Shown one piece after another: positions 15,212-61,330 of a stretch of 61,330 bases of DNA. The first letter of the stretch is position 1; the number at the start of each line of letters is the position of its first letter. The position numbers and the translations under genes are program-made. The stretch comes from Moorena bouillonii PNG. GTDB taxonomy: Bacteria > Cyanobacteriota > Cyanobacteriia > Cyanobacteriales > Coleofasciculaceae. The stretch lies in contig NZ_MKZS01000001.1 in assembly GCF_001942495.1 (NCBI RefSeq), positions 5,382,122-5,443,451 on the forward strand. The letters are read 5' to 3'. Below the pieces are notes generated by a model. The model searched no databases. It was not told where the DNA came from and was given only the letters and a program-made list of their open reading frames with translations.

Positions 15212-16345
15212 GTGGTTGCCACTCCAGAAAAATCTCAATCAGTAAAACCTTCCCCAACCCATGGTCAGGAGCGAGTTGCGGTTTTACTCATGGGTTATGG
15301 AGAAGTCGAAAGCTACGAAGACTTCGCCAACTACAACGAACAAGCCTTAAACTTGCTTACCGCCAAATTTGCCCCAGTCCCCAACTGGATCTATCCACCC
15401 TTAGCCAAAATATTGGCAATGTTTGACTTCCACGAGTGGGGGCACCAGCATGACAACTTTATTTCACCCCACAACAAGATTTTTGAACAGCAACGGGCAG
15501 GTATTGAAAAACAACTGCAAGCTAAATGGGGCGATCAGGTGCAGGTATTCAAAGCCTTTAACTTCTGCGCTCCCTTTTTGCCAGAACAAGTCCTCAGTGA
15601 AATTAAGGCGGAAGGGTTCCAAAAACTGCTGATCTATCCCCTGCTAGTGGTGGATTCCATCTTTACTAGCGGCATTGCGGTGGAACAAGTCAATAAAGCC
15701 CTCGAGAAATTAGAGGATAAAGATCAACACTGGGTTCAGGGATTGCGTTACATCCCGTCTTTCTATAACGAACCAGAGTACATTAATCTAACTGCTCAAT
15801 TGGTGGAAGAGAAAATTACTACCGATTTAGCAGCAGCCTATCTGCCCTCCCAAATTGGCATTGTCCTGATGAACCATGGCTGTCCCCACGAAGCTAAAGG
15901 ATTTGTGTCTGGAATTGACGAAAGTCAGGCATTGTATGAGGCAGTAAGGGAAAAGTTGATGTATAAGTATCCCCTAATCTCTGTGGGCTGGCTTAACCAC
16001 CAAACTCCCTTAATTAAATGGACTCAGCCTCACGCGGAGTTAGCAGCCCAGAACCTGATTAACTTAGGGGCTAAGGCGATTGTGTTTATGCCGATTGGCT
16101 TTGCCACAGAGAATCACGAAACCCTCTTAGATGTGCATCACATTGTCCACGCTCTAAAGCGTCGTAACTCAGAGGTTACCTACGTAGAGATGCCCTGTGT
16201 TAATGATCATCCAGAATTCTTACAGATGGCAGCGGAGTGGGCTAATCCTCAAATTGAGGTACTACTATCAGAAAATGCTCTATCTGTCAATCCCCAGTTG
16301 GCAGCTGTGCAGGCATCAGAGCACCATCATCACCATCACCACTGA
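15212..16345 (+). CDS. Ferrochelatase-superfamily protein with poly-His C-terminus
   Basis: The protein has 377 residues and starts at GTG 15212, preceded by AGGA. The N-terminal VLLMGYGEVESYEDF corresponds to the ferrochelatase start block. LMNHGCPHEAKG corresponds to the active-site 'SAHGLP' block and GFATENHETLLD to the 'vSEHiET' block, keeping the conserved His and Glu. Ferrochelatases insert iron into protoporphyrin IX as the last step of haem synthesis. Unlike the usual cyanobacterial HemH it has no C-terminal Hlip/CAB membrane segment. It ends instead in seven consecutive His residues after Ala-Ser-Glu, a possible metal-holding tail. It could be a paralogous chelatase rather than the main HemH. 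It stands alone between divergent and co-directional genes. Confidence 0.7.
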   Translation: MVATPEKSQSVKPSPTHGQERVAVLLMGYGEVESYEDFANYNEQALNLLTAKFAPVPNWIYPPLAKILAMFDFHEWGHQHDNFISPHNKIFEQQRAGIEKQLQAKWGDQVQVFKAFNFCAPFLPEQVLSEIKAEGFQKLLIYPLLVVDSIFTSGIAVEQVNKALEKLEDKDQHWVQGLRYIPSFYNEPEYINLTAQLVEEKITTDLAAAYLPSQIGIVLMNHGCPHEAKGFVSGIDESQALYEAVREKLMYKYPLISVGWLNHQTPLIKWTQPHAELAAQNLINLGAKAIVFMPIGFATENHETLLDVHHIVHALKRRNSEVTYVEMPCVNDHPEFLQMAAEWANPQIEVLLSENALSVNPQLAAVQASEHHHHHHH

Positions 16346-20373: not shown

Positions 20374-20919
20374 TCAGTAGGAACCGAAAATCCAGTTTCC
20401 TGGAGCCTCTGGATCTTGACTGTAATAGAATTCGGTAACTAGATCTAATATCTCTTGTTTGTCAATGTAACCATCATTGTTCTGATCGAAGCGTCCAAAA
20501 ATTTCTTCAATTTGACTGTCGTCAATACCGTAAGCCTGAAAAAATTGTCGGTATTCTTCCAGAGTAACTTTATCGTCTTTATCAGAATCCAATAGGAAAA
20601 TAATCCCTGCCGCTTTAGCATTGACTACTGCTTCATTCCCGTCGGTGTCACTCAGTACATTTTCGTGATAAGTCAACCATTCATCCAAGGTCACTTGCTG
20701 GTCTTGATTCTGGTCGGTAAATTTCTGCACGCCATTCCAAATCCTCATGTAAATAGCAAGAAGATTGTCATAATATGGCGAGCCCGGTGTCCAACCCCTG
20801 ATCGCAGCAAGGTTATCAGTAATACGTTCAAAATCGGCTTGGGTTAAAATACCATTTGTTTGCTGATCGTACAGGTTAAACAACCTGGTCAATTTTCTCT
20901 GCTGCAATTCCCTAAGCAT
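20374..20919 (-). CDS. Four-EF-hand calcium-binding protein
   Basis: The protein has 181 residues and four EF-hand loops can be read. They are DQQTNGILTQAD (degenerate), DQNQDQQVTLDE, DSDKDDKVTLEE and DQNNDGYIDKQE. Loops 2-4 keep Asp/Asn at positions 1, 3 and 5 and Glu at 12, so at least three should bind calcium. The spacing resembles bacterial calerythrin and sarcoplasmic calcium-binding proteins. There is no signal peptide, so it is probably a cytosolic Ca buffer or sensor. It stands alone, co-directional with gloB upstream (about 140 bp). The partner is unknown. Confidence 0.85.
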   Translation of the reverse strand: MLRELQQRKLTRLFNLYDQQTNGILTQADFERITDNLAAIRGWTPGSPYYDNLLAIYMRIWNGVQKFTDQNQDQQVTLDEWLTYHENVLSDTDGNEAVVNAKAAGIIFLLDSDKDDKVTLEEYRQFFQAYGIDDSQIEEIFGRFDQNNDGYIDKQEILDLVTEFYYSQDPEAPGNWIFGSY

Positions 20920-24222: not shown

Positions 24223-27201
24223 TTAGACATAGCTTTGCCAGCTCTGCCCTGTTAAGGACTGGGTGGCTACTGCCTCCTGCAGCCCCGTTTGATTCATCAG
24301 CCAGATCTCATTTTGTCCAGTGGTGCCATTACGCAAGAGGACATCGTCAAAATTATTATTGTCAAAGTCCATAGTACCACGAACTTCCCACTCACCGCTG
24401 ATTGGTAGTGAGGCAATCAACACTGACTCTACGTACTCACTACCTTCCATGCGCCAGTAGTAGACATCTTGGTTTTGAGTATTACGCCACAGAATATCCG
24501 CGTCACCATCGTTATCTAAATCTCCAGCACCTTGCATCTGCCATAGACCGTCTTCTGCTACCAGCAAATTCTCACCATTATTCTGTCTGGTAATGGAAAC
24601 TCCCTGATCCAGCTGCGTACCATTCATCAACCAAACCCCATTTTCTCCGGTATTGGTATTACGCCAGAGAATATCTTCTTCTCCATCACTGTCGAAATCT
24701 CCCGTGCCACGAATTTCCCAGTTGAGGTCTGATACCTGGCTGCTAGATGCTGTGCTTTTGAACTCAGAGCCTTCCATTAGCCAGAAGCTCACATCTCCGG
24801 TATTAGTATTACGCCAGAGAATATCCTTTTGCCCATCGCCGTCGAAGTCTCCAGCACCACGCATCTCCCAGGGACTATCAGCTGATTCCGCTTGAATTGG
24901 ATTTGACTGATCCAACTCAGTGCCATTCATGATCCAGGCAAGATTGCTTCCAATCTGAGAATTACGCCAAAAAATATCCGCAGAAGAGGCAACATCCTCA
25001 ACAGGAGTAACGTTAATGTCAACAGTAGCCGTCTTAGTAGTCAGACCATTATTTAACTCATAGGTCAAACTGTCAGCTCCATTAAAGCCATTGTTAGGAG
25101 TGTAAATTACAGAATCATCACTGAAGTCTCCAGCAGTGCCATTGTCATCCACTACTGCAGTACCATTGCTGGGACCATTAACAATGGTCAGAGTGCTGTT
25201 TCCGTTAATACCAGTGTCATTTGCTAAAACATCAATGGTTACCGCTGCATTTTCTTCAGTAGTAGCGGTGTCATCTACTGCAATCAGACTGTTCTCGTCA
25301 ACAGCAGCAGCAACATCAATGTCAACAGTAGCGGTCTTAGTAATCAGACCATTGCTTAACTCATAGGTAAAACTATCAGCTCCACTGAAACCATCATCAG
25401 GAGTGTAAATCACAAAATCATCAGTTAAGTCTCCAGCAGTGCCATTGTCATCCACTACTGCAGTACCATTGCTGGGATCATTGAGAATGGTTACAGTGCC
25501 GTTTCCGTCAATATCAGTGTCATTTTGTAAAACATCAATGGTTACCGCTGTATTTTCTTCAGTAGTAGCGGTGTCATCTACTGCAATCAGACTGTTCTCG
25601 TCAACAGCAGCAGCAACATCAATGTCAACAGTAGCGGTCTTAGTAATCAGACCATTGCTTAACTCATAGGTAAAACTATCAGCTCCACTGAAACCATCAT
25701 CAGGAGTGTAAATCACAGAATCATCAGTGAAGTCTTCAGCAGTGCCATTATCATCCACTACTGCAGTACCATTGCTGGCATCATTGAGAATGGTTACAGT
25801 GCCGTTTCCGTCAACATCAGTGTCATTTTGTAAAACATCAATGGTTACCGCTGTATTTTCTTCAGTAGTAGCGGTGTCATCTACTGCAATCAGACTGTTC
25901 TCGTCAACAGCAGCAGCAACATCAATGTCAACAGTAGCGGTCTTAGTAATCAGACCATTGCTTAACTCATAGGTAAAACTATCAGCTCCACTGAAACCAT
26001 CATCAGGAGTGTAAATCACAGAATCATCAGTGGAGTCTTCAGCAGTGCCATTGTCATCCACTACTGCAGTACCATTGCTGGCATCATTGAGAATGGTTAC
26101 AGTGCCGTTTCCGTCAACATCAGTGTCATTTTGTAAAACATCAATGGTTACCGCTGTATTTTCTTCAGTAGTAGCGGTGTCATCTACTGCAATCAGACTG
26201 TTCTCATCAACAGCAGCAGTAACGTCAATGTCAACAGTAGCCGTTTTAGTAAGCAGACCATTGCTTAACTCATAGGTAAAACTATCAGCTCCACTGAAAC
26301 CATTATCAGGAGTGTAAATCACAGAATCATCAGTGAAGTCTTCAGCAGTGCCATTGTCATCCACTACTGCAGTACCATTGCTGGGATCATTGAGAATGGT
26401 TACAGTGCCGTTTCCGTCAATATCAGTGTCATTTTGTAAAACATCAATGGTTACCGCTGTATTTTCTTCAGTAGTAGTGGTGTCATCTACTGCAATCAGA
26501 CTGTTCTCGTCAACACCAGTAACGTCAATGTCAACAGTAGCTGTTTGAGTAGTTAGACCATTGCTTAACTCATAGGTAAAACTGTCAGGTCCACTGAAAC
26601 CATCCTCAGGAGTGTAAATCACAGAATCATCACTGAAGTCTCCAGGAGTGCCATTGTCATCCACTTCTGCAGTACCATTATTGGCATCAGTGACAATGGT
26701 CAGAGTGCTGTTTCCGTCAAGATCAGTGTCATTTTCTAAAACATCAATATTTACCTCTGTATTTTGTTGAGTGGTAGCGGTGTCATCTACTGCAATCAGA
26801 TTCTCATCGAGTGGAATGAATTCAATGAAGTCAATTCGGGCATATTCCTGGCGATCACGAGTACCGTTAATTGTGATTTCGTCTCCATTGTTGATGAATA
26901 CGGTACTGCTAATTTGTTCATTGACAAAACTATCACCATCATTATCCAAAGTTAATGTTGGCAAGTCGGTATTGCCAATAGTGATATTTATGGGGCTTTG
27001 TCCATCAGACTCATCCAGGTAACCTAACCTAACTTCGTAGTTACCAGTAGGTAAATTAAAGGTTGTGGTAGCACTACCAGAGGAGGGATTAGGACCAAAT
27101 TCATCGGGTATTCTGATTAGTGAACCACCCTCAGCCTCGTTATTATCCTCAATTTCAAAAATGTTTCGATTTTCAAAGTTTTCAGCTTGAATTTTAACCA
27201 T
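24223..27201 (-). CDS. Large repeat protein: CBM-like domain, six cadherin-like repeats, VCBS/FG-GAP tail
   Basis: The protein has 992 residues. Residues 1-132 resemble a CBM6/35-type carbohydrate-binding beta-sandwich (GNYEVRLGYLDESDGQSP, YARIDFIEF). Residues about 134-738 are six tandem roughly 101-residue Ig/cadherin-like repeats (LIAVDDTATTEENTAV, VLQNDTD, VIYTPDDGFSGADSFTYEL). Residues 740-992 are five FG-GAP/VCBS-like units (GAGDFDGDGQKDILWRNT). Many DxDxDG motifs suggest calcium-dependent folding. There is no N-terminal signal peptide, as in many type I-secreted or otherwise exported cyanobacterial surface proteins. I infer an adhesin or sugar-binding surface protein. The 303-bp DNA repeats are nearly identical, pointing to recent duplication or gene conversion. 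Confidence 0.8.
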   Translation of the reverse strand: MVKIQAENFENRNIFEIEDNNEAEGGSLIRIPDEFGPNPSSGSATTTFNLPTGNYEVRLGYLDESDGQSPINITIGNTDLPTLTLDNDGDSFVNEQISSTVFINNGDEITINGTRDRQEYARIDFIEFIPLDENLIAVDDTATTQQNTEVNIDVLENDTDLDGNSTLTIVTDANNGTAEVDDNGTPGDFSDDSVIYTPEDGFSGPDSFTYELSNGLTTQTATVDIDVTGVDENSLIAVDDTTTTEENTAVTIDVLQNDTDIDGNGTVTILNDPSNGTAVVDDNGTAEDFTDDSVIYTPDNGFSGADSFTYELSNGLLTKTATVDIDVTAAVDENSLIAVDDTATTEENTAVTIDVLQNDTDVDGNGTVTILNDASNGTAVVDDNGTAEDSTDDSVIYTPDDGFSGADSFTYELSNGLITKTATVDIDVAAAVDENSLIAVDDTATTEENTAVTIDVLQNDTDVDGNGTVTILNDASNGTAVVDDNGTAEDFTDDSVIYTPDDGFSGADSFTYELSNGLITKTATVDIDVAAAVDENSLIAVDDTATTEENTAVTIDVLQNDTDIDGNGTVTILNDPSNGTAVVDDNGTAGDLTDDFVIYTPDDGFSGADSFTYELSNGLITKTATVDIDVAAAVDENSLIAVDDTATTEENAAVTIDVLANDTGINGNSTLTIVNGPSNGTAVVDDNGTAGDFSDDSVIYTPNNGFNGADSLTYELNNGLTTKTATVDINVTPVEDVASSADIFWRNSQIGSNLAWIMNGTELDQSNPIQAESADSPWEMRGAGDFDGDGQKDILWRNTNTGDVSFWLMEGSEFKSTASSSQVSDLNWEIRGTGDFDSDGEEDILWRNTNTGENGVWLMNGTQLDQGVSITRQNNGENLLVAEDGLWQMQGAGDLDNDGDADILWRNTQNQDVYYWRMEGSEYVESVLIASLPISGEWEVRGTMDFDNNNFDDVLLRNGTTGQNEIWLMNQTGLQEAVATQSLTGQSWQSYV
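25130..26560 (-). repeat. 303-bp tandem DNA repeats coding for cadherin-like domains
   Basis: At least four consecutive 303-bp units (phase points near 25136, 25439, 25742, 26045, 26348) are almost identical at the base level. They encode 101-residue domains. The outer units are more diverged, the usual gradient for expansion by unequal crossing-over. Confidence 0.9.
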
Positions 27202-36651: not shown

Positions 36652-39600
36652 ATGTCAAATCAAGTATTTAATCTTTCAAACCTTAACGGGAGAATTGGGT
36701 TCTCTATTAATGGTGTTACATTAGGTGACCGGTCCGGTTTCTCAGTCAGCAGTGCTGGAGATATCAACGGTGATGGCAATCTTGATCTGATTATTGGAGC
36801 CCCTGGGGCTGATCCCAATGGCCTTTTTTCAGGTAAAAGCTATGTTGTTTTCGGTGGTCCAGATGTGGGTGCTAGTGGTAGCATCGAACTCGCTGACATC
36901 GAATCACCTGACCCAGCAGAGCCTAGTAAGGGTTTCGTGATTGGCGGTCTTAATTCAACTGGATTCTTAGGCTTTTCGGTTAGCAGTGGTGGAGATATCA
37001 ATGGTGATGGTACGAGTGACCTATTGGTAAGTGCTCCTGGTGCTGGGCCCAACAACAATGGTGTTAGCTATGTAATATTTGGCAGTTCTACTATTGGCTC
37101 TACTGGTAGCGTCGATCTGTCATCTGCCTTTGCTATCAATGGTGACGATCCTGCAGAATTTTCTGGTCATTCCATCAGCTTAGGGGATGTTAACGGCGAT
37201 GGTAAGGATGACATCTTGATTGGTGCTCCTCATGCCTTGTTGCCTATTTCTTCTCCCGGTCTTAATCCTGGCAAGGCTTATGTGGTATTTGGGGGCACAC
37301 AAGCTTCTGGCGGTAGCCTAGACCTCTCCACTCTGGACCTGGACGGCGATAATGGCTTCGTCCTCACCAGTAGTGTTGCAGGAAACTTGGCAGGTTTCTC
37401 AGTAACTAGTCTTGGGGATATCAATGGTGATCTGATTAAAGACTTTGCTATCGGTGCTCCTGGTAGTGATTCTCCTCTGACTGACAACAGTTCTGCTGGC
37501 AAGACTTATGTAGTGTTCGGTGGTTCAGGTGTCGGTGCCACTGGAACCCTAGATCTTTCCTCCATACCCTCTGACCCGACAACTGGCTTCGTCATTGATG
37601 GTATTGATGAAGGTTCCAGCCTTGATCTCGGTGACAGGGCAGGCTGGTCTGTGAGTGATGCTGGGGATGTCAATGGTGATGGTGTTAGTGACTTAATCAT
37701 TGGGGCTCCCTTTGTTGATGCCGGTGACCAGACTAATGTTGGTGAGGCTTACGTAGTGTTTGGCGGCACAGATGTTGCTGCTACAGGAAACTTAGACCTT
37801 GCCAGCCTGGACGGTACCAACGGCTTTGCGATCACAGGGATTGAAGCGAATGGTCTCCTGGGCTCGTCAGTTAGTTATGCTGGGGATCTCAACCAAGATG
37901 GGTATGCTGATGTTGCCATTGGAGCTGAAGGTGCAGGCAAAGTTTATGTGCTGTTCGGCAGTGAAGAATTGGGAGCTACTGGCAGTGTAGATCTTTCTAC
38001 ATTAGACGGTGAAAATGGCTTAGTTATCGAAGGTACTGACTCCCTAGGCTTCTCAGTAAGTGAAGCAAAAGATGTTAATAGTGATAGCATTGATGACCTA
38101 GTTATTGGCGCACCTGGTCTTGAGCTTAGTACAGCCAATGGCAGCACCCCAGGGACTAGCTATGTCCTATTCGGTAATGTTGCTCCAGTCATAGACCTCA
38201 ATGGTGTATCGCCAGTTACCGATCCTGTTACTGACCCAGTTACTGATACTGACCCAGTTACTGATCCTGTTACTGACCCAGTTACTGATACTGACCCAGT
38301 TACTGACCCAGTTACTGACCCAGTTACCGATCCTGTTACTGACCCAGTTACTGATACTGACCCAGTTACCGATCCTGTTACTGACCCAGTTACTGATACT
38401 GACCCAGTTACCGATCCTGTTACTGACCCAGTTACTGATACTGACCCAGTTACCGATCCTGTTACTGACCCAGTTACTGATACTGACCCAGTTACCGATC
38501 CTGTTACTGACCCAGTTACTGATACTGACCCAGTTACCGATCCTGTTACTGACCCAGTTACTGATACTGACCCAGTTACTGATACTGACCCAGTTACTGA
38601 TACTGACCCAGTTACTGATACTGACCCAGTTACTGATCCTGTTACTGATCCTGTTACCGATCCTGTTACCGATCCTGTTACTGACCCAGCTCCCCAGCCA
38701 GTTCTTGCAGCTACTGAGGGAATTCCAGCTGCTGCCCCAGCTATTGCAGATACCGACGGCATTGATGCTACTGTCACATTTACAGGTAATCAGCTGGCAC
38801 TGTTCCCAGGTGGCAACTTGACTCTGAGTGATGCTAATAACACTACTCTGGTTGGCGCAACAGTAACAATTGCTAATCTGCTGAATCCCGGACAGGAAGA
38901 GCTGACTGTTGACAACACTGATACCCTGATAGCGGTTAGCTTCGATGCTGACAATGGTATCCTTACCTTAGATGGGGTAGATACCATCCAAAATTACCAG
39001 CAAGTCCTCAACACCCTAGAGTATGAAAACACATCTGGTGTGATTGATGCCCCTGGTCGCATTATCCAGTTTGTGGTTGATGATGGTTTAGCTTTCAACA
39101 ACGTCAGTGAGGTAGCTACTCTGATTGCTATCCAAGATAATGACTCGACGGTAATTGGTACTTTCCAGGATGATACCTTGCTTGGAGGTAATGGCAACGA
39201 TAGCCTAGAAGGGAGCTCAGGCAATGACTTACTCGACGGTGGAGCCGGAAATGATACCCTGGTTGGAGGAGATAACTCAGACACCTTGCACGGTGGTGAC
39301 GGTGATGACGTCCTTGATGGTGGGACTAATGAAGACTTCCTGGATGGTGGAGCTGGTAATGATAACTTGTCTGGGGGAGAAAACTCAGACACCTTGATCG
39401 GTGGTGAGGGTAATGACTCCTTGTTTGGTGGTAACAGTGATGATACCTTAGAAGGCGGATTAGGGGCTGATATCTTATCTGGCGGAGGCGGCTCTGACAC
39501 CTACGTCTTGAGCCCTGGTGAGGGAACAGATACTGTGTTTAGTTTTGAAGATGGAATCGATCTGTTCGAGTTAGGTGGAGGTCTGACCTTTGATGACCTG

Positions 39601-39756
39601 GTAATTGGTAATAACCTAGGCGCGACTACTATTAGTATTGCTGACCCTGCTAGTATTACTGGCACTGGCGAAGTCTTAGCACAGGTGTTCGGGATATCGA
39701 CGACTCAGCTGACAGCGGCTGATTTTATTGTTGTTGAGGATATAGTCGTGGGTTAA
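36652..39756 (+). CDS. Large secreted-type protein: FG-GAP repeats, TDPV linker, RTX repeats
   Basis: The protein has 1034 residues. Residues about 10-505 are seven integrin-alpha-like FG-GAP units ([25 protein letters not shown]), each with a Ca-binding DxNxDG loop. Residues about 522-680 are an extended linker of Thr-Asp-Pro-Val repeats. Residues about 685-835 form a beta-rich cadherin-like domain. Residues about 839-950 carry RTX nonapeptides ([22 protein letters not shown]), the calcium-dependent signal region of type I secretion substrates. There is no N-terminal signal peptide, which fits type I export. I infer a large surface or released adhesin; no transporter gene lies in the window. 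Confidence 0.88.
38211..38690 (+). repeat. 42-bp minisatellite coding for [14 protein letters not shown]
   Basis: Tandem 42-bp units (14 residues, built from 12- and 18-bp subunits GTTACTGACCCA and GTTACTGATACTGACCCA) code for the linker of the RTX protein. Several units are base-identical, implying recent expansion. All units are multiples of three bases, so length changes keep the frame. Confidence 0.9.
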
Positions 39757-57970: not shown

Positions 57971-58604
57971 CGATCGCTAATCTATTTAGTAGACTTCGCG
58001 GCAGTTGTCGGGAACAGGGAACAGCGGATCTGGGAACAGTGGATAAGAATTGACGCAAACACTATCAGAAAACTACTTTTGCGCATAGGTCTAGTTTAGG
58101 GAGTCGGGAGTCGGGAATCGGGAATCGGGAGCGGTGCGACCCGTGGCGAATTTAATTACGGGTCAAGCGCACCGAGGGAGTCGGGAATCGGGATATGAGA
58201 AGCGCTATAATTCATAATCAATTATGAATTATTAATAAACATACTATCTAAAAATCTGGTTAAAATTATTCTAAAAGCCAGGGGTTAAATTTTACTTTCA
58301 TCCAGACTTATTACGGAGCATAATCCTACAGCAGAGCGGAAATAAATACACCATTAAAAACGTTTGATGTTTGAGGTTTTAATTCCGCGCAGCTGTAGTA
58401 ATACTAAGTTCGATATAGCGTTTGTATTGGAGATGTAAACCTAGGAGGTCTTTTTTTACTGTCCAATAAAACTGAGGATCTCTTTCCCCTATGGCCTATG
58501 GCCTCTTGCCTCTTGCCTTTTTTACAACCCAGATACAAATGCTATAGTGCTACACAAGTAGTGATTTTAGCTCCCGTTACCTTGACCAGAGCCTAGCCAA
58601 ACCA
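57971..58604. other. Intergenic region with repeat arrays
   Basis: These 634 bp lie between convergent genes. They contain GGGAGTC/GGGAATC arrays (58098-58125 and 58176-58196) around a copy of the extragenic GGTGCGACCCGTGGCGAATTT...GCGCACC repeat (58134-58174). A GCCTATG/GCCTCTT array lies at 58491-58520. No gene was recognised. Confidence 0.6.
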
Positions 58605-58886
58605 CTACATCCCTTCGGGACAATCATCGGTATGAGTGGGTTGAGACTTCTTCAGTTTGCTAAAATCAATGTCGAAACCGAAAGTTCCACTCAAGGGTGT
58701 GAAGATTTCAGTGGCTACAATCGTACCATCATCGTCTAGGTCGAATCCCAGTTGGTTACCGAGGCCAAATCCGATGCCACGTACACGTAAGGTAAAGCCG
58801 CCGATGATGTGACCCATCATTTCGGCATCCTTTAGTTCAGTCAAACAGTTTTCCCGAGAAACCTTGAGGTCAGAAATAGTGATCAT
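58605..58886 (-). CDS. Micro-protein 1: double-glycine leader plus EF-hand-like loop
   Basis: The protein has 93 residues from ATG 58884-58886, preceded by AGGAGA at a good distance; a longer in-frame extension to 58994 has no ribosome-binding site and is rejected. Residues 1-30 look like a cyanobacterial double-glycine leader (MITISDL, then ELKDAEMMGHIIGG). Residues 31-80 are a Gly/Phe/Asp-rich core. DLDDDGTIVATE at 49-60 fits the 12-residue EF-hand loop, with Asp at 1, 3 and 5, Gly at 6, Ile at 8 and Glu at 12. The tail is unique (QPTHTDDCPEGM). It is the last of three tandem paralogues. Precursor of a secreted peptide or small Ca-binding protein; no known family recognised. Confidence 0.75.
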   Translation of the reverse strand: MITISDLKVSRENCLTELKDAEMMGHIIGGFTLRVRGIGFGLGNQLGFDLDDDGTIVATEIFTPLSGTFGFDIDFSKLKKSQPTHTDDCPEGM

Positions 58887-58920
58887 AGTTGGTAAATCTC
58901 CTGTGAATTGGTTTCTTTGA

Positions 58921-58955
58921 CTAATCAGGGAGAAAAATTTATTCCCCCTGATTAG
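58921..58955 (-). promoter_or_regulatory. 5'-leader hairpin of micro-protein 1
   Basis: CTAATCAGGG (58921-58930) and CCCTGATTAG (58946-58955) form a perfect 10-bp stem about 35 nt upstream of the start codon. The same hairpin lies in the leader of micro-protein 2. Confidence 0.6.
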
Positions 58956-59085
58956 ATTTACCCCGAGTCCAGGGCGGCAGAAATCCCTTACCAACTGCCA
59001 TCAGTCGAAATCCTTAGTATTAAAGAAATTCATCCTTGATACTTCGACTTCCAGGTAGCGAAGGCTATTCTGTACAAGACTCTAC

Positions 59086-59130
59086 AGACCTCTGGTCAAA
59101 TAAAGTCTGATTAATTTCCACCAGAGCTCT
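59086..59130 (-). terminator. Intercistronic hairpin after micro-protein 2
   Basis: AGACCTCTGGT (59086-59096) and ACCAGAGCTCT (59120-59130) pair with one mismatch. The hairpin starts 17 nt past the stop codon, exactly as after micro-protein 3. There is no T-run, so it may be an attenuator or an RNA-stability hairpin. Confidence 0.55.
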
Positions 59131-59147
59131 TACGGAGCCGATTAGTC

Positions 59148-59396
59148 TTAGTGTTTATTGAACAGGTCACTAAAATCAATATCGAACCCGAAAGTTCCAC
59201 TCAAGGGTGAGAAGATTTCAGTGGCTACAATCGTACCATCATCATCTAGGTCGAATGCCAGTTGGTTACCGAGCACAAATCCGATGCCACGGACACGTAA
59301 GGTAAAGCCGCCCATGATGTGACCCATCATTTCGGCATCCTTGAGTTCAGTCAAACAGCTTTCCCGAGAAACATTGAGGTCAGAAATAGTAATCAT
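59148..59396 (-). CDS. Micro-protein 2: double-glycine leader plus EF-hand-like loop
   Basis: The protein has 82 residues from ATG 59394-59396, with AGGAGA upstream; a longer frame to 59501 is rejected for the same reason as in copy 1. It is nearly identical to copy 1 through residue 75 (MITISDLNVS, ELKDAEMMGHIMGG, FDLDDDGTIVATEIF) and ends SDLFNKH. Similarity to copy 1 continues into both flanking non-coding regions, so the duplicated unit includes the leader and terminator-like hairpins. The leader's strict conservation with drift in the tail fits a transporter-recognised precursor. No C39-peptidase ABC transporter or maturation enzyme lies in the window. Confidence 0.75.
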   Translation of the reverse strand: MITISDLNVSRESCLTELKDAEMMGHIMGGFTLRVRGIGFVLGNQLAFDLDDDGTIVATEIFSPLSGTFGFDIDFSDLFNKH

Positions 59397-59431
59397 AGTT
59401 AGTAAATCTCCTGTGAATTGATTTGGTAAAG

Positions 59432-59464
59432 TAATCAGGGATAAAAATTTATTCCCCCTGATTA
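59432..59464 (-). promoter_or_regulatory. 5'-leader hairpin of micro-protein 2
   Basis: TAATCAGGG (59432-59440) and CCCTGATTA (59456-59464) form a perfect 9-bp stem about 36 nt upstream of the start codon, matching the one ahead of micro-protein 1. Micro-protein 3 lacks it. Confidence 0.6.
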
Positions 59465-59579
59465 TATTTAACCCGAGTTCAGGGCGGCTGCCATCAGTCA
59501 AAATCTTTGGTATTAAAGAAATTCATCTTTTATACTTCTGACTTCCAGGTAGGCAAGGCTATTCTGCCCAAGACTCTAC

Positions 59580-59624
59580 AGACCTCTGGTGAAATAAAGT
59601 CTGATTAATTTCCACCAGAGGTCT
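59580..59624 (-). terminator. Intercistronic hairpin after micro-protein 3
   Basis: AGACCTCTGGTG (59580-59591) and CACCAGAGGTCT (59613-59624) form a perfect 12-bp stem, 17 nt past the stop codon of micro-protein 3. Confidence 0.6.
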
Positions 59625-59641
59625 TAGGGAGCCGATTAGTT

Positions 59642-59890
59642 TTAGTGTTTGAAGAACTTACCAAAATCAATAGTGCCCCCAAAAGTTCCACCGAAGGGTG
59701 AGAAGATTTCAGTGGCTACAATGGTACCATCATCGTCTAAGTCGAATGCCAGTTGGTTACCGATGCTAAATCCGATGCCACTGAAACTTAATTTTAAAAA
59801 TCCACCGATGATGTGACCCATCATTTCAGCATCTTTCAGTTCAGTTAAACAATTTTCGCGAGAAACATTAAGGTCAGAAATAGTAATCAT
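59642..59890 (-). CDS. Micro-protein 3: double-glycine leader plus EF-hand-like loop
   Basis: The protein has 82 residues and is first in transcription order. The ATG at 59888-59890 follows AGGAGA. The leader is the same as in copies 1 and 2 (MITISDLNVS, ELKDAEMMGHIIGG), as is the EF-hand-like loop (DLDDDGTIVATE, residues 50-61). The stretch after the double glycine differs (FLKLSFSGIGFSIG) and the C-terminal part is more Gly-rich (FGGTFGGTIDFGKFFKH). Its upstream region (59891-60060) differs from the leaders of copies 1 and 2 and probably contains the main promoter. Confidence 0.75.
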   Translation of the reverse strand: MITISDLNVSRENCLTELKDAEMMGHIIGGFLKLSFSGIGFSIGNQLAFDLDDDGTIVATEIFSPFGGTFGGTIDFGKFFKH

Positions 59891-60218
59891 TGCTAGTAAA
59901 TCTCCTGGAAGTTAGCTTTAGCTTGTGTTTTGTTTGAGGTTTGTTCGTTCCTCATCACATTTACATCCTAGGTGTTTTTTGTAAGGGATGCAAGGGGTTT
60001 TTCAAAGGGTTGGGGACATTAAAAATGCATCGTGTCTTTTAGGGATTAGTTATTGGTGATTAGTCATTTTTCCTTGGCATGCCAGCCGTTTGCCTGGAAT
60101 TATGTGTGATTATTATTCAGTTAGTGAAATGGCTAGTTATGGAAATTCGGGACATAATTATTGCTGTTTTTTCTTTTGTTATTTTATTTGTTTTGGAAGA
60201 AAAAGAATGAAGCGGTCT
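59891..60218. other. Upstream region of the micro-protein cluster
   Basis: AT-rich DNA expected to hold the promoter of micro-protein 3. A short Phe/Cys-rich plus-strand frame (60090-60326) runs into a repeat array and is not supported as a gene. Confidence 0.4.
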
Positions 60219-60322
60219 TTAGGGAGTCGGGAGTCGGGAGTCGGGAGTCGGGAATCGGGAATCGGGAGTCGTGTGGGGAGATGGGGAGATGGGGAGATGG
60301 GGAGATGGGGAGATGGGGAGAT
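60219..60322. repeat. GGGAGTC array followed by GGGGAGAT array
   Basis: Six GGGAGTC/GGGAATC heptamers are followed by about six TGGGGAGA units. The second array matches that at 36162-36215 and the first matches 58098-58125. Confidence 0.85.
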
Positions 60323-60398: not shown

Positions 60399-61330
60399 TA
60401 CTCCGGACGGTTTGATCGATGCGATCGCTTTTGTGTTGGTGAAATGGTACAGTCCATTTTCCCCACTCCGGCTGGGATCTCCGGAGTGTTTGATAGATGC
60501 GATCGCAAAAGTGTTGATGAAATAGTTCAGTGAATTTTCCCGGCATTGGTGAATTTTGGGATCAACATCAGTGGAGTGGGCATCCTGCCCGCAAAGGCCA
60601 TAGATTGAAACTGGCTTGATGCCAGTTCCACCCCTGAATCCTACTCCACCTATAAAACCTATTAAACCCCTGAGCCCTGTTCTACTCGGTGATCTATGTG
60701 TACGCTTTTGTGTTGGTGAAATACTCCAGTGAATTTTCCCGGCATTGGTGAATCAAGGCATGAACATTAGTGGGGTGGGCATCCTGCCTGCCCAACAATA
60801 TATTGAAACTGGCTTGATGCCAGTTCCACCCCTGAATCCTACTCCACCTATAAAACCTATTAAACCCCTGAGCCCTGTTCTACTGGGTTATTTATGCGAT
60901 CGCTTTTGTGTTGGTGAAATACTCCAGTGAATTTTCCCGGCATTGGTGAATCAAGGCATGAACATTAGTGGGGTGGGCATCCTGCCTGCCCAAGCATAGA
61001 TTGAAACTGGCTTGATGCCAGTTCCACCCCTGATGCCTGTTCCACCCCTGATGTCGATTCTACTGGGTTATTTATGCGATCGCTTTTGTGTTGGTGAAAT
61101 ACTCCAGTGAATTTTCCCGGCATTGGTGAATCAAGGCATGAACATTAGTGGGGTGGGCATCCTGCCTGCAAAGGCCATAGATTGAAACTGGCTTGATGCC
61201 AGTTCCACCCCTGAATCCTACTCCACCTATAAAACCTATTAAACCCCTGAGCCCTGTTCTACTGGGTGATCGATGCGATCGCTTTTGTGTTGGTGAAATA
61301 CTCCAGTGAATTTTCCCGGCATTGGTGAAT
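60399..61330. repeat. Tandem array of 180-200 bp repeats, truncated by the right edge
   Basis: Four to five units start near HIP1 sites or their variants at 60499, about 60699, 60896, 61076 and 61275. Each has GTTGGTGAAAT, AATTTTCCCGGCATTGGTGA, GTGGGCATCCTGCC, a hairpin AACTGGC-TTGAT-GCCAGTT, and ACCTATTAAACCCCTGAGCC in fixed order. Unit length varies (about 180-200) by loss of internal blocks. Each unit reads as a Pro-rich peptide in one frame (MNISGVGILPAQ...), but this is interrupted and unlikely to be translated. The array continues outside the window. Confidence 0.85.

Follow-up and report, generated by a model that had tools for sequence, protein, structure and literature searches.

The window, a stretch of 61,330 nucleotides of the Moorena bouillonii PNG genome, contains three short tandem genes on the minus strand, referred to here as w1–w3. 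Their open reading frames of 93, 82 and 82 residues bear out an earlier note on this DNA, which had described three adjacent genes of 82–93 residues. Each encodes a leader and a core with a calcium-type loop:

58605..58886, minus: copy 1 (w1), 93 residues; double-glycine peptide with a calcium-type loop and a longer tail, closest to copy d of the sister species
58797..58886, minus: leader of copy 1, residues 1–30, ending in GHIIGG
58707..58742, minus: loop of copy 1, DLDDDGTIVATE, residues 49–60
59148..59396, minus: copy 2 (w2), 82 residues
59307..59396, minus: leader of copy 2, residues 1–30
59217..59252, minus: loop of copy 2, DLDDDGTIVATE, residues 49–60
59642..59890, minus: copy 3 (w3), 82 residues; first gene of the array in reading direction
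59801..59890, minus: leader of copy 3, residues 1–30
59708..59743, minus: loop of copy 3, DLDDDGTIVATE, residues 50–61

The three genes are tandem duplicates, arranged as direct repeats with a spacing of 510 and 491–494 nt and with the intervening regions repeated too; an AGGAG-type site lies upstream of the ATG in all three. The common leader, MITISDL(K/N)VSRE(N/S)CLTELKDAEMMGHI(I/M)GG, comprises 30 residues, and the cores that would be released after the GG have 52–63 residues in the window copies, each with the loop DLDDDGTIVATE of the type Dx[DN]xDG...E. None of the three proteins matches a Pfam or NCBIfam family, even at E ≤ 10, and the curated models of RiPP precursors (Nif11/NHLP type and others in NCBIfam) likewise return 0 families at that threshold. 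The literature listings describe no such combination of leader and loop, in agreement with the earlier note, which had not recognised it as a described family.

Elsewhere in the window, a 198-bp tandem repeat (60497-61330, 4.3 copies) extends to the window end and recurs beyond it, adjoined by 7-bp and 8-bp minisatellites (GGGAGTC and TGGGGAGA). Two large surface-type proteins are encoded at 36652-39756 and 24223-27201, one combining FG-GAP and RTX calcium repeats with a stretch of TDPV repeats, the other Big_9/cadherin-like repeats with FG-GAP; surface proteins of the FG-GAP/RTX and cadherin-like kinds are often calcium-linked. A true EF-hand protein of 181 residues, over the Pfam cut-offs, is encoded at 20374-20919 (minus strand), and a ferrochelatase with seven natural histidines at its C-terminal end at 15212-16345 (plus strand).

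Relatives of the array and their shared leader

Proteins that combine this leader with the loop were found in only two Moorena-type genomes in our sampled searches. Four copies are present in the window's own genome (G000), the fourth at G000:C1:8144438-8144686 (hereafter the 8.14-Mb copy), and five in the genome of a sister species (G001); no further full-length member was detected in sets of 97 genomes, 388 class genomes and 20 family genomes, each including the window's own. The full-length precursors have 81–97 residues, with mature parts of 51–66 residues (5.6–7.3 kDa). A block at positions 58176..60289 of the window is colinear with the G001 array region but inverted (blastn pieces, 74–99% identical), its ends being blurred by repeats and more pieces reaching up to 60541. 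In G001 the block has mraY on one side and tandem capsule-type genes on the other; in the window its position is different.

The same leader precedes a different core in one gene each of G002, another Moorena-group genome (contig L020/L012), and of a contig of Moorena sp. SIO3H5 (L013), with 77–87% identity to the window's leader. The calcium-type loop is missing from both peptides, and similarity of their cores to the calcium-loop core is not detectable. The earlier note had expected GG motif and loop to persist together in homologues; GG and leader are indeed kept in these two, but the loop is gone and the cores are unrelated. This rules out one family with one core; for modular double-glycine peptides, unrelated cores behind one leader are the expected pattern.

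The leader, which ends in GG and contains hydrophobic positions, is constrained more strongly than the core. Between w1 and w3, 11 of the 30 leader codons differ, 10 of them synonymously (dN 0.014, dS 0.89), compared with dN 0.21 and dS 0.42 in the core; both differences among the 13 loop codons are synonymous. Over 11 chosen pairs, with few codons behind each estimate, dN is below dS in all 11 leaders and in 10 of the 11 cores. Constraint on the core is uneven: between w3 and copy a of G001, core dN (0.21) exceeds dS (0.08), and each of the four loop differences alters the amino acid while sparing the ligand positions. For w1 and copy d of G001, five of 13 loop codons differ, and the encoded residue changes at positions 4, 9 and 10 alone.

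Among 291 class genomes, 46 have matches (E ≤ 0.01) to a profile built from 19 leaders (A3), and the matches are frequently tandem; several of the 46 genomes supplied leaders to the profile. At E ≤ 1 it gives 13 matches in G000, 21 in G001, 12 in G002 and 0 in G003 (a further Moorena-group genome), counts that include a few likely chance matches. The cores behind this wider leader family are very diverse, being Ala/Gly-rich, poly-Thr, Cys-rich, NANT-rich or of the calcium-loop type; the last accounts for 9 of the 107 leader ORFs in the fetched loci, and the loop occurs in none of the other 98. Within a single genus, one leader is followed by cores that are entirely unrelated to each other, and we conclude that it serves as a general tag for the export of small proteins.

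Further double-glycine peptides, on L138 (G002:C61), L013:1354-1623 and L099, stand out by their cores, with eight Cys in a row, poly-Thr and NANT-rich stretches. A second tandem set lies beside a 1075-aa C39 protein at L070:5475-8108 (G000:C1, about 115-118 kb), where four of five small ORFs begin with M(I/L)ISDLNHLE followed by VxG(G/A); these starts resemble the HetP-type motif KIXDLXYLEX10GG as given by Wang et al. in the available text (PMC3140520).

C39 exporters and the surface-glycan island

No C39 exporter is encoded in the window: all 10 Peptidase_C39 matches of the genome lie outside it, the nearest about 0.4 Mb off; the earlier note had likewise remarked on the absence of a transport gene nearby. 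Across the wider family, 26 of 54 leader arrays have a C39-ABC gene no more than 15 kb away (among 132 leader matches listed, in 30 genomes chosen from the 46, G000 being left out), where a rough length-based estimate gives an expectation of 1%. The other 28 arrays, including all arrays in 10 of the 30 genomes, have no C39 gene nearby among the matches listed, so exporter adjacency is not essential. One further genome (G273) has a C39-like gene near its array that appears split by eye (L074) and was left out of the count; another C39 exporter gene that looks split by tblastn is on L159 (G003:C44). The double-glycine export leader proposed in the earlier note belongs to a widespread cyanobacterial leader family that is strongly linked to C39 exporters.

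Of the two genes that share the window's leader, the MITISDL gene of L013 lies in convergent orientation to genes for a rotamase, HlyD and a CAP-C39-ABC exporter; the other, on the G002 contig, adjoins rotamase and HlyD genes before the contig ends. Orthologs of the L013 exporter are present at G000:C1:8169969-8172743 (90%), at G001:C1:486581-489352 (89–90%) and on G002:C386 (98%). The G000 ortholog, 2.7 Mb from the window array, gives substance to the earlier suggestion of a transporter encoded elsewhere, as a roughly 90% identical counterpart of a leader-linked exporter. The cassette is complete in G001; in G000 the rotamase gene is gone, with an ORF that looks transposase-like by eye in its place. 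G003, a fragmented assembly of 510 contigs, has 0 leader peptides; its exporter relatives above 70% are split or partial, and its 50% relatives are intact. Sequence and linkage together support export of w1–w3.

The G001 array is flanked by the mraY gene and the tandem capsule-type genes, and the corresponding place in G000 holds mraY, the 8.14-Mb copy and capsule-type genes (Capsule_synth over cut-off in the one scanned). The G000 sequence continues with glycosyltransferase-type genes, PseI and PseG (both over cut-off) and then the C39 cassette, 25 kb from the 8.14-Mb copy. The cassette of G001 lies 45 kb from its array and adjoins a PseF-like gene below cut-off, in the part of G001 viewed. 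In two genomes, tandem genes of 457–477 aa, one matching Capsule_synth, stand beside a calcium-loop gene (L016:15259-18394 and L019:1764-7280); the remaining glycan genes, and the labels transposase-like and transketolase-like, were assigned by eye. Gene positions in both genomes thus place peptide, surface-glycan and exporter genes in one island in G001, a linkage that comes from two related genomes and from family members other than the window array. The window array itself stands apart, adjoining neither island nor exporter and lying 2.7 Mb from the island.

The calcium-type loop and its core

The nine loop-bearing cores share invariant D1, L2, D5, G6, T7, I8 and E12, with D or N at position 3, and vary at positions 4, 9, 10 and 11, so that all nine contain D-x-[DN]-x-D-G and, further on, an acidic ligand. 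When three cores were shuffled 20,000 times each, a relaxed form of the loop pattern turned up in 0.1–0.24% of the shuffled sequences; among 154 ORFs of at least 150 aa in the window and 12 loci, one has it. The earlier note had called the loop a full match to that of EF-hands. This holds for all ligand positions, but V at loop position 9 does not satisfy the strict PROSITE pattern PS00018; six of the nine members pass this pattern, and the three window copies fail at position 9 only.

Searched against the PDB, the core profile finds two lanmodulin-type EF-hand chains as its best matches (E 4.7e-5), followed weakly by calcineurin B and calmodulins (E 0.015 and up); the full-length profile has no match (best E 0.78). 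The Pfam EF-hand models do not match w1–w3, and the better of two other members scanned reaches 19.0 bits against a gathering score of 25.9. AlphaFold2, run with nine sequences, predicts for copy 3 the order strand, loop, helical turn, strand, with a mean pLDDT of 70 overall and 88 over residues 21–30. For the divergent 8.14-Mb copy, the best model repeats this order of elements (mean pLDDT 58; the other four models, 42–48), and in both of these divergent cores the loop is the best-scored part of the low-confidence models. A search for folds matching the predicted core models found none.

Because these low-confidence models place the loop between β-strands, it is probably not a classical EF-hand, and the description 'EF-hand-like' in the earlier note suits the loop better than its predicted surroundings. 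With EF-hand proteins such as calmodulin and lanmodulin it shares the 12-residue length and D1, D/N3, D5, G6, I8 and E12, but here the loop is single, flanking helices are not predicted and scores fall under the Pfam EF-hand cut-offs. Dx[DN]xDG loops also bind Ca2+ in strand-loop-strand contexts, according to the available text of PMC3123361, and the core would fit that setting rather than a classical EF-hand: the motif is present in 9/9 cores, strand-loop-strand is predicted, the setting would be extracellular and the phyletic range is narrow. The family differs from the loops described there (PMC3123361) in being a 51–66-residue mini-protein exported by a double-glycine leader, with calcium binding as a prediction. 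The cores are acidic (pI 4.05–4.59, charge -3 to -8), and Cys is absent from five of the nine (two of the three in the window), with one in each of the remaining four. The sequence features of the core support calcium binding.

Possible roles of the exported mini-proteins

Our favoured reading, which we hold tentatively, is that w1–w3 are C39-exported, calcium-binding mini-proteins of the matrix or cell surface that work like the EbfG biofilm proteins. It builds on what sequence analysis establishes for the family: the leader constraint, the link of the leader to C39, HlyD and rotamase genes, the conserved loop ligand positions, the unrelated cores and the proximity of family members, other than the window array, to a surface-glycan island. 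Their export as small substrates would fall to an ABC exporter with a C39 peptidase domain, encoded at another place in the genome; it would recognise the 30-residue leader and cut after GG. Within the cell, where free calcium is low, the acidic core would probably be unfolded; in seawater, rich in calcium, it would adopt a two-stranded β-ribbon round the Dx[DN]xDG...E loop with one Ca2+ bound. Once loaded, the mini-protein may have its role in the extracellular matrix or on the cell surface, where it could, for instance, order or bridge acidic surface glycan. Cleavage, calcium binding and calcium-triggered folding of w1–w3 are what we infer, together with a matrix function suggested by the neighbouring genes and the EbfG precedent.

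EbfG1–4 of Synechococcus elongatus PCC 7942 are 9–10 kDa GG precursors whose efficient secretion needs the C39 peptidase domain (PMC4997328, in its available part). The Synechococcus biofilm matrix depends on these proteins and in part contains them (PMC4997328, PMC9981879), and EbfG4 is located on cells and in the matrix (PMC9981879). The likeness lies in tandem genes for small GG precursors, in mature sizes of 6–7 kDa for EbfG and 5.6–7.3 kDa here, and in secretion by a C39 exporter, shown for EbfG and proposed for w1–w3. The differences are that the available text on EbfG mentions no calcium loop and that EbfG1–3 form amyloid (PMC4997328, PMC9981879). Mature EbfG proteins are described as having no homology to other cyanobacterial proteins (PMC4997328), and w1–w3 are likened to them by description only. 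The group I/II bacteriocin clusters of Wang, Fewer and Sivonen 2011 are alike in their double-glycine precursors with very diverse cores and, as on L013, in a long-type C39 exporter with an N-terminal nucleotide-binding domain, HlyD and a SurA-type rotamase; calcium and EF-hands go unmentioned in the main text (PMC3140520), and the window array stands apart from any cassette of this type. Leader and export route are already known; the literature covered, mostly as listings, yielded no calcium loop within a core of this kind.

The leader type, being that of cyanobacterial bacteriocin precursors as described in PMC3140520, raises the alternative that w1–w3 are unmodified antimicrobials or signals, exported by C39, active in a Ca2+-dependent way and diversified in tandem against competitors. 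Tandem copies, diverse cores after one leader, a core constraint weaker than that of the leader and dN > dS in 1 of 11 pairs are consistent with this, as are one wider-family member with a sub-cut-off match to Pfam Bacteriocin_IIc (16.6 of 27.1 bits) and others that match lantibiotic-type models below cut-off. The retention of the loop ligand positions in 9/9 cores argues against it, inspection by eye showed no immunity-like gene next to the array genes, and the cores are acidic, whereas class II bacteriocins are usually cationic; we regard this reading as unlikely. Calcium might instead merely stabilise the fold of an exported peptide whose function (signal, inhibitor or partner binding) resides in the variable strands and tails. 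The conserved loop is flanked by just such variable parts, and structural roles are common for bound calcium in the available text of PMC3123361, but the data here indicate no particular partner, and to this reading too we give a low probability.

A post-translationally modified RiPP core is improbable. The leader/core layout is compatible with one, sub-threshold lanthipeptide matches occur among other wider-family leaders, and a gene for a cytochrome P450 (53292-54677) has the RiPP enzyme ApyO as its best NCBIfam match, with a score that falls far short of the cut-off (173.8 of 525 bits). The P450 gene, however, lies 3.9 kb off with two ORFs between, no maturase was seen by eye beside the genes, w1–w3 match no Pfam or NCBIfam family, and the five cores without Cys can have no thioether rings. 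Hardly credible is the reading of ordinary cytoplasmic calcium-binding proteins with a GG by chance, which would account for the loop match but conflicts with the strong leader constraint, with homologous leaders that adjoin C39 exporters and with unrelated cores after one leader.

A bolder version of the matrix reading, which we consider doubtful, is that a Moorena lineage has placed a calcium switch behind a general double-glycine tag, the core staying unfolded during C39 export, forming its calcium-bound β-ribbon in seawater and polymerising or cross-linking acidic sheath glycan. RTX proteins of type I secretion likewise undergo calcium-triggered folding after ABC export, with a C-terminal signal. 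The likeness lies in the idea of calcium-triggered folding; here the leader would be N-terminal and cleaved, the exporter would have a C39 peptidase and there are no RTX repeats. If true, this would amount to an RTX-like calcium ratchet that arose independently in a mini-protein about 52 residues long.

Cyanobacteria commonly encode double-glycine peptides, which are usually classed as bacteriocins; their functions were described as uninvestigated as of 2016 in the available text of PMC4997328. The best-studied role that we found for such peptides is that of EbfG in the biofilm matrix. The calcium-type loop is a recognisable chemical feature in the core of one of them, and may point to its function.
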